In this document: one piece after another, positions 28,183 to 59,855 of the stretch | How the letters are laid out: every line of letters begins with the position of its first letter | Position numbering within the stretch: the stretch's first letter is position 1 | NCBI RefSeq assembly: GCF_017874375.1 | Contig: NZ_JAGGLK010000002.1 | Coordinates: forward strand, 62,001-126,000 | Reading direction: 5' to 3' | Length of the DNA stretch: 64,000 bases | Source: Methanohalophilus levihalophilus | GTDB lineage: Archaea > Halobacteriota > Methanosarcinia > Methanosarcinales > Methanosarcinaceae | Translations under genes and position numbers: made by a program | Notes under the pieces: model-generated | Seen by the model: the letters and a program-made list of their open reading frames with translations, nothing else | What the model was told of the DNA's origin: nothing | The model's database searches: none

Positions 28183-28941
28183 TTAAAAATCATCATAAAA
28201 TGCATCAAAACCTCTAGGAACAATCGCTTTGAAGAGGAGGTAGACGGCACTAAATATAGCTCCTATGATTAGTGCCAACATGAATTTTAAAAACAGACTT
28301 GTGGTATTTATACCCATATAAACAACAATAATTCCAAAAAGAGAGAACACCAGAATAATGAGCAATTGGCTTTGCCTGTATGATAAACGAGGGTATTTTA
28401 GAGGCGTTCGATTTACTTCTGTATATTTTGGGCTCCCCGCTCCTTTTATTTTCCCTATAATTTCAAAATCTTCTCCCGATGTGCCGGTGTGAACAATTTT
28501 TGCAATTATACCTTCATCTTTGTCTACATAATCAAATTTTAGCTGAAATCCCTTTTCATCTGCTATTTTTTCAAGAGAAAAATTGTTTGCAGGTTCTTTA
28601 GAATCAATAATTTTGGCGTCAAGTATTTTGCAATTCTTTTTTGGAACAATAAATAGTGGTTCTGCAGGTGTGATGTCTGATCCGTCAATTGTTTCTCGAC
28701 CTTTGTTCCAAAAAATAAGTTTTGATACAGTTAAATTTTCAATTTGCTCATCAGAATAAAGAATGTTTAAGGATTCAAATTTGCTAATTGAGCTATCTAT
28801 GATATTGAAGCTACGTGTAGAATAAGAGGGTCTCTTTTCTTTTCTTGATTTTATGGCTATAATGATACCAACTATTCCAATGATATATCCAACAATAATA
28901 TTGGGGTTAGTTAACTGATCAATCATTGGTGCCAAATCCAT
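28183..28941 (-). CDS. Unknown protein with N- and C-terminal membrane helices
   Basis: A 252-residue protein with one hydrophobic helix at about 12-30, a soluble middle of beta character (about 45-185) and two hydrophobic helices near the end (about 192-240). I recognise no family. Codon use is A+T-rich. It stands alone between the ribK promoter and the potassium channel gene. Nothing in the context indicates a role. Confidence 0.6.
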   Translation of the reverse strand: MDLAPMIDQLTNPNIIVGYIIGIVGIIIAIKSRKEKRPSYSTRSFNIIDSSISKFESLNILYSDEQIENLTVSKLIFWNKGRETIDGSDITPAEPLFIVPKKNCKILDAKIIDSKEPANNFSLEKIADEKGFQLKFDYVDKDEGIIAKIVHTGTSGEDFEIIGKIKGAGSPKYTEVNRTPLKYPRLSYRQSQLLIILVFSLFGIIVVYMGINTTSLFLKFMLALIIGAIFSAVYLLFKAIVPRGFDAFYDDF

Positions 28942-58630: not shown

Positions 58631-58672
58631 ATCAGTAGAACCAAAAATATATATAGAATCCAGCCTATGAAG

Positions 58673-58780
58673 GGTCCTGTTGAGGAATACGATATTAGTA
58701 CCCCCCAAATCCCCATTGTGATTTAAGTACTGATCCTCCAAACTCATCCCCTCATCAGTATTCCTCAACACTTTTTTTGT
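58673..58780 (+). ncRNA. Small RNA gene with 13-bp closing stem and C-rich loops
   Basis: A TATA box AAAATATATATAG (58643-58655) predicts a start near 58673. The perfect 13-pair stem TGTTGAGGAATAC/GTATTCCTCAACA (58678-58770) encloses a hairpin AGTAC...GTACT with AAATC/GATTT inside. Seven Ts (58772-58778) follow at once as terminator. The unpaired parts hold CCCCCC, CCCC, CCTCC and CCCC, complementary to ribosome-binding sites. No reading frame fits. It sits between the lipoprotein gene and the convergent purP and matches no family I know by name. Confidence 0.72.
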
Positions 58781-58787
58781 AATGTTT

Positions 58788-59855
58788 TCAGGATACTATT
58801 TCTTCAAGTTTGTTGAGTTTGGCTGCCATTTTGATTTCTTGCGCAATACGGCGACCTGTTGAGAGATTCTCCTCGATCATATCGGAATAAGGAGAGCCGT
58901 TTGTGTAAATGTTTGTGCCTGCTACAATGCGGGCGGAGATCTCGAATACCTTGATTTCCAGCTGATCCGTAAATACTGTTTCAAGGCAGAAAGGACCAAT
59001 CATTCCACCAAATCTGGAGAGTGATTCCTCAACTACCATTTCACCAAGCGCGAAAATCTTGGGTAACAGTGATTCCCTTGCAACGAGCGGGACATTTCCG
59101 GTAACAACATATGTTGGATAAACACCTGCTTCTTCAAGCTCCCTTGGGGAACCCAGACGGAAAATTTCGTCTGCATTGGATTCTACCCTTCTGTCCATGC
59201 TGAGCATTTCAAGAGTACCTTTGCTCAGCTTGTACCCTTCGGTTTTAAGCGGGGAATAGAAGTAGTGAAGGTAATAGCGGGTTCCTACGATGAATTCCTG
59301 GATAGTGTACTTCTGGCTTTTGTCAATGTTGGCAAGGAATTCGTCATAGTTCTTTGCGACAAAGAATCCTCTTCCACCCTTGGCACCATGATATTTCACC
59401 ATGACAGGGCCGTTGATATCTTCGGGTTCGACAAGGCGCGGCATGTGAATACCTGCACTTTCAAGCCATTCTCTTTCCTTATCCCGATCTGATTCCCAGT
59501 CCAGAACCGCACGGTTTCCAAAGGTAGGCACGCCGAAGTCAAGAAACTTGTTAGCTCCCATATATTCTACAAAGGAACCGTGGGGAATAATGATTGCATT
59601 TTTTTCCTGAAGCAGGGGGGCAATATCCATAATTTCTTCATAGCTGTCAACAACGATGAACTCATCAGGTTTTGCTTTTGGGAAAGCGTCATAGAATCGC
59701 GGGGGTTTTCCTATGCAGATTCCGATGGTTTTGAAACCTTCTTTGCGTGCTCCATCGAAAATCTGGAGGCTGGAATGTGAACAGACTGTTGCAATAGAAA
59801 GTTCATCGGTGTTATACGAATTAAGAATATCAGCTATTTCCCGCTTTGTAATCAT
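58788..59855 (-). CDS. purP: FAICAR synthetase PurP (formate-dependent)
   Basis: A 355-residue ATP-grasp enzyme that formylates AICAR with free formate in archaeal purine synthesis. Recognisable stretches are TVCSHSSLQIFDGARKEGF, KYHGAKGGRGFFVAKNYDEF, FIVGTRYYLHYFYSP and EISARIVAGTNIY. It starts at ATG 59855 and ends just after the terminator of the small RNA gene coming from the other side. Confidence 0.94.
   Translation of the reverse strand: MITKREIADILNSYNTDELSIATVCSHSSLQIFDGARKEGFKTIGICIGKPPRFYDAFPKAKPDEFIVVDSYEEIMDIAPLLQEKNAIIIPHGSFVEYMGANKFLDFGVPTFGNRAVLDWESDRDKEREWLESAGIHMPRLVEPEDINGPVMVKYHGAKGGRGFFVAKNYDEFLANIDKSQKYTIQEFIVGTRYYLHYFYSPLKTEGYKLSKGTLEMLSMDRRVESNADEIFRLGSPRELEEAGVYPTYVVTGNVPLVARESLLPKIFALGEMVVEESLSRFGGMIGPFCLETVFTDQLEIKVFEISARIVAGTNIYTNGSPYSDMIEENLSTGRRIAQEIKMAAKLNKLEEIVS

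Follow-up and report, generated by a model that had tools for sequence, protein, structure and literature searches.

The window, the whole 64-kb stretch of DNA analysed here from the halophilic, methanogenic archaeon Methanohalophilus, almost certainly carries a real, independent non-coding RNA gene. The gene is predicted to be free-standing and intergenic and to yield a small RNA of about 100 nt, and its status as an independent, conserved and non-coding unit is strongly supported by its fold, conservation and synteny, all read from genome sequences. The predicted transcript spans positions 58676-58778 of the plus strand; its 5' end (about 58673-58680) was inferred from the TATA spacing and its 3' end from the T-run. 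A preliminary description of the locus had reported a TATA box, a perfect 13-pair closing stem and a T7 terminator, all correctly spaced, and this description is accurate. The TATA box of the putative promoter (TATATATA, 58648-58655, +) lies 23 nt upstream of the stem, whose arms (TGTTGAGGAATAC, 58678-58690, and GTATTCCTCAACA, 58758-58770, both +) form a perfect 13-bp inverted repeat at 58678-58770 that encloses a loop of 67 nt, and the T7 run (58772-58778, +) begins two bases past the stem. The locus is flanked on one side by a dnaG-like primase gene and a small lipoprotein gene, both on the plus strand, and on the other by a convergent purP-like gene (58788-59855, -; Pfam matches to DUF1246/DUF1297).

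The loop is composed of 34% C and 9% G, and the four C-runs named in the preliminary description are all present: CCCCCC at 58701, CCCC at 58711, CCTCC at 58735 and CCCC at 58748. The first C-rich stretch, CCCCCCAAATCCCC (58701-58714, +), is mostly unpaired in the predicted fold. Within the loop, an internal hairpin of seven Watson-Crick pairs and one G-U was predicted between ATTAGTAC (58694-58701) and GTACTGAT (58727-58734), enclosing CCCCC, AAATCCCC and a weak AAAUC/GAUUU hairpin (AAATC/GATTT in the DNA). This hairpin (58694-58734, +) had been listed among the elements of the RNA and was recovered for the window and for genome G002, but six of the eight Methanohalophilus genomes fold differently inside the stem, so that it is not a conserved element.

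The structure is unusual for the sequence in which it lies. The folding energy of the 108-nt sequence was -25.9 kcal/mol, compared with -13.0 ± 2.9 kcal/mol after shuffling (z -4.5; none of 200 shuffles as good). The core alone gave a z of -5.6 and the cores of distinct relatives -5.6 to -6.7, for a range of -4.5 to -6.7 over seven distinct sequences. A repeat search of the 64-kb window found no other perfect 13-bp inverted repeat at a spacing of up to 120 nt; perfect 12-mer stems with a loop of 40-90 nt occurred twice, whereas order-1 random sequences had 0.28 on average. A second long inverted repeat (28634-28718) is located within a 252-codon open reading frame of the window and was rejected as a small RNA on that ground.

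One copy of the gene was found in each of the eight Methanohalophilus genomes (8/8), always adjoining purP. A DNA search detected copies in all eight and in none of 52 other genomes of the family and order, and a covariance model of the RNA (R1), run over 112 genomes of the family, recovered the same eight genomes; its remaining matches in those 112 had E values of 0.06-1, lacked the stem arms and are attributed to chance. An exact-stem scan of named genomes gave matches only in Methanohalophilus records, namely those of M. euhalobius, M. profundi and two others. All of 101 family genomes contained a purP-like gene, and no such RNA was seen on its 3' side in the neighbours from other genera read by eye; among the neighbours read, the RNA beside purP is limited to Methanohalophilus. 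On the side opposite to purP, dnaG is found wherever the sequence extends far enough. In the Methanohalophilus MAG DJKA121_NP-J24_bin.30, where no lipoprotein gene was found, about 2.3 kb of other DNA separates dnaG (ending at 2847) from the RNA (5183), which is kept (L080).

Two groups can be distinguished among the eight genomes, one made up of the window's genome and G002 and the other of the remaining six. Between the groups, 64-70% of the fourfold-degenerate sites of purP differ, which is close to saturation, and most of the flanking intergenic sequence is unalignable. Across the same distance, the 12+12 inner bases of the stem arms are invariant, and a 26-nt loop segment, GTACTGATCCTCCAAAACTCATCCCC, shows no substitution in any of the eight genomes; its A-run reads AAAA in the seven relatives and is one A shorter in the window, where the segment is GTACTGATCCTCCAAACTCATCCCC (58727-58751, +). 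Because arms and segment are unchanged while the fourfold sites of purP are nearly saturated, the sequence itself is under strong purifying selection, which acts on the arms as well as on the loop segment (ACUGAUCCUCC...CUCAUCCCC). The invariant segment is likely the target-binding part of the RNA. The first C-run follows another pattern, CCCCCCAAATCCCC in the window and CCCCCAAACTCCCCC in most relatives, its composition being kept and its exact sequence not. The preliminary description had called for stem-preserving changes to be sought in related genomes. The stem is kept in all eight, but all 12 modelled pairs are invariant, and no covariation could be scored; this invariance points to constraint on the sequence and, as far as covariation goes, neither supports nor refutes the pairing.

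The signals for separate expression are kept as well. The motif TATATATA stands 22-24 nt ahead of the stem in all eight genomes, though the surrounding intergenic DNA has diverged, and a T-run of 4-7 lies within 2-12 nt of the stem in every one of them. An independent promoter and terminator are thus present in 8/8 genomes, and the RNA lies between genes in all. Cores of 91, 96, 98 and 99 nt do not keep a reading frame, which ruled out a small protein on either strand, and the 19-codon sense open reading frame of the window is absent in the other genomes. With Rfam 15 at the gathering threshold, only a tRNA was detected in the window and no family was assigned to the RNA; at E <= 10 the best sub-threshold matches were to unrelated miRNA and snoRNA models. 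A scan for bacterial-type promoters and terminators returned no matches, as expected for an archaeon. The RNA gene of about 100 bases is previously uncatalogued.

As to function, we give a little better than an even chance to an RNA that is made from its own TATA promoter and whose C-rich loop masks ribosome-binding sites (RBSs) in trans, lowering translation. Transcription would start from the archaeal promoter and end at the T-run just past the long closing stem; the perfect stem would serve both to protect the transcript and to leave the G-poor loop with its C-runs open and accessible. In trans, the loop could then pair with translation initiation regions rich in purines (GGAGG/GGGG), at times as far as the AUG, and an initiation region so paired would be blocked for binding of the 30S subunit, with less translation as the result. 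Over samples of 283 and 304 gene starts, the segment paired more strongly with starts than with gene interiors, and its reversed form did likewise. In the window's genome, the loop paired with gene starts at a mean of -11.3 kcal/mol and with gene interiors at -8.8 kcal/mol. The reversed loop, used as a control, had nearly the same start preference (-10.4 vs -8.0 kcal/mol), from which it follows that the anti-RBS character reflects a C-rich composition meeting purine-rich leaders. The start-region preference is compatible with RBS masking and is no proof of it.

Targets were sought by a pattern search of the eight genomes and of sampled stretches, a search that was not exhaustive. Among the near-complements of the invariant segment that were inspected in the eight genomes, only the one at clpB lay at a gene start in several genomes; the others were inside genes, antisense to genes, or at the start of a gene in a single genome. 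The clpB leader, TGGAGGATCAGT|ATG, perfectly complements the invariant segment in four of the eight genomes (G001, G003, G005 and G007; for example G003 C1:1341482-1341493, L131), with a predicted duplex of 14 contiguous bp that takes in the Shine-Dalgarno sequence (SD), the spacer and the start codon's AU. In G003, clpB ranked first of 304 start regions, in a sample chosen to include it. The site has one mismatch in G006 and at least two in G004, and it is missing from G002 and from the window's genome, both of which have unrelated clpB leaders. Since only four genomes have the perfect site, while two have an eroded one and two have none, clpB was rejected as a conserved target; judged from these leaders it may be a species-level target in some species, and it is not the reason for the conservation of the RNA. 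No target site conserved across the genus was found among the near-complements inspected. The prediction of targets among start regions, which the preliminary description had proposed as a check, thus yielded clpB in half of the genomes but nothing in the window's own at that gene, and the ACDS operon, considered by analogy with sRNA41 of Methanosarcina mazei, was rejected because its start sites fell mostly mid-background in the eight genomes.

To our knowledge, the mechanism is known for no more than a few archaeal sRNAs. In the related M. mazei, the three characterised sRNAs (sRNA162, sRNA154 and sRNA41) cover ribosome-binding sites (PMC3510493, PMC5867862, PMC6560208), and by analogy with these RBS masking is the best mechanism to propose for the window RNA. 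Like the latter, sRNA41 is an intergenic sRNA of a methanoarchaeon, and it is reported to repress translation by covering RBSs in polycistronic mRNAs (PMC5867862, PMC6560208). Its reported target is the ACDS operon, whereas the window RNA pairs with Methanohalophilus ACDS starts no better than background; in g8, the Methanosarcina-sized genus, the best match of R1 had an E of 0.059 and was not significant. ACDS complementarity thus gives no support to an orthologous relationship with sRNA41, and the absence of an orthologue in Methanosarcina was judged from R1. In sRNA162 and its homologue sRNA171, a single-stranded region between stems pairs with the RBS, and homologues are reported only in close relatives (PMC3510493), a lineage restriction that recalls the genus-limited occurrence of the window RNA. 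However, sRNA162 is longer, at 191 nt, and has three stem-loops as well as a linker of 39 nt, in contrast to about 100 nt and a single closing stem in the window RNA. The anti-RBS loop of sRNA154 represses translation of glnA2, and this sRNA is highly conserved within its genus (PMC5867862); it differs in being nitrogen-regulated, in having two loops and in also stabilising mRNAs. A likeness by description only is offered by nine cold-induced sRNAs of Methanolobus psychrophilus R15, of the same order, which are intergenic, have their own promoters, are highly conserved and share a common upstream motif (PMC5378194). Transcription start sites in M. psychrophilus lie about 19-22 nt from the BRE/TATA elements (PMC5378194).

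An architecture scan of sampled stretches revealed a separate family of stem-closed C-loop RNAs in Methanosarcinaceae that have the motif CCCCACUCCCCA in the loop. Of the 112 family genomes, 99 contain this exact 12-mer, as do 11 of 14 genera, mostly with 2-4 copies per genome; the reversed control was near zero. At the loci that were read, Watson-Crick stems of 9 bp or more enclosed 32 of 36 copies, compared with 3.7% of random places. Members combine a TATA promoter, a perfect 9-13 bp closing stem and a G-poor, C-rich loop, often followed by a T-rich tail. Examples with TATA box, stem and motif are G000 C1:129362-129436 (L164:9362-9436, +) and a locus in G000 C3 near 278694 (L289), and relatives were found in L179, L269, L287, L297, L298, L302 and L307-L336. 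In this family the stems differ and covary, with 9 of 13 pairs changed on both sides and 98.7% of cells paired; the cores were cut at their best stems, which makes these covariation figures lean upwards, and the comparison with random places is the fairer control. No Rfam family covers the RNA at the loci tested.

The window RNA shares the TATA, stem and C-loop architecture with these RNAs, but its stem and loop sequences differ, and its stem is invariant whereas theirs covary. A covariance model of the family (R2) gave no match at E <= 10 in the window or in six relatives, while three family members scored 48-62 bits. By sequence, then, the window RNA is not a member, and the architecture alone is common to both. 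A HEARO RNA (HNH endonuclease-associated, RF02033, 106 bits; L310:937-1176, -) was seen near a CCCCACUCCCCA sRNA in a g11 genome. Other C-rich elements were also encountered: a candidate stem-closed RNA in G003 (C1:1019191-1019265; L187:19191-19265, +) has a TATA box and a 13-bp stem, TGAAAGGGACCGG, and lacks CCCCACUCCCCA, and G011, of the neighbouring genus g5, has at least four copies (C1:212972, 241675, 299613 and 350471; L279, L282, L285 and L288) of a C/T-rich element, CATAAGCTTTTCCCCTCTCCCCC...CCCCTCACC, followed by a T-run and ...GTAGACG.

The preliminary description had read the RNA as a trans-acting repressor of translation. This is plausible because the loop prefers gene starts and because the three characterised M. 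mazei sRNAs mask RBSs, but the reversed loop behaves alike and no conserved target site was found. Base-pairing to an RBS also leaves the invariance of the stem arms unexplained. A function mediated by a protein would better explain it: the invariant stem and C-rich loop would form a site for a dedicated single-strand or poly-C binding protein (Sm-like, TRAM or KH), and the RNA would serve as a sponge or scaffold, with no base-pairing to mRNA. We consider this rather unlikely overall, while noting that neither arm varies, whereas compensatory changes would be expected if pairing alone mattered, that the 26-nt segment is conserved yet no conserved target complement was found for it, and that the separate C-loop family also keeps its C motif exactly. 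Against it, the CCUCC/GAUCCUCC core resembles an anti-SD sequence, which a protein-only model does not predict, and the sRNAs characterised in related methanogens work on mRNAs.

It is improbable that the locus is a cis element, whether as the terminator or 3' UTR belonging to the dnaG/lipoprotein transcript upstream of it or as antisense to the 3' end of the purP mRNA. The RNA does sit between two convergent genes, and in the window 10 nt separate the end of the T-run from the purP stop, which would make read-through from purP antisense to the RNA; in most relatives, however, the RNA is 100-200 nt from the end of purP, and purP is present in other genera that lack the RNA. No lipoprotein gene was found between dnaG and the RNA in G002, where RNA and TATA box are kept, and the RNA is therefore not the 3' UTR of that gene. 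The TATA box at a fixed spacing in eight genomes likewise argues for separate transcription, and the internal conservation is far too high for a terminator. Very improbable is a small sensor or processing RNA from which a nuclease would cut the long stem and free a C-rich fragment as the active species, for although a perfect 12-13 bp stem could serve as a double-strand processing signal and sRNA162 of M. mazei accumulates as processed 5' fragments (PMC3510493), 13 bp is short for the known double-strand nucleases.

Viewed across the family, these observations suggest a broader idea, which we put forward tentatively and hold to be possible but not probable: Methanosarcinaceae might use a whole undescribed class of "C-loop" sRNAs, short and TATA-driven, with C-runs displayed in a large open loop that a perfect stem locks. 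Such RNAs would have arisen in several lineages unrelated in sequence, among them the window RNA and the CCCCACUCCCCA family, and all would act on purine-rich RBSs or through one shared C-binding protein. If so, the window RNA would represent the branch of that class specific to Methanohalophilus. It is compact, single-copy and strongly constrained, and its 26-nt likely contact segment is open to mutation tests. Similar RNAs from across the family, which Rfam lacks, could make the regulation of translation by RNA in archaea testable across many methanogens.
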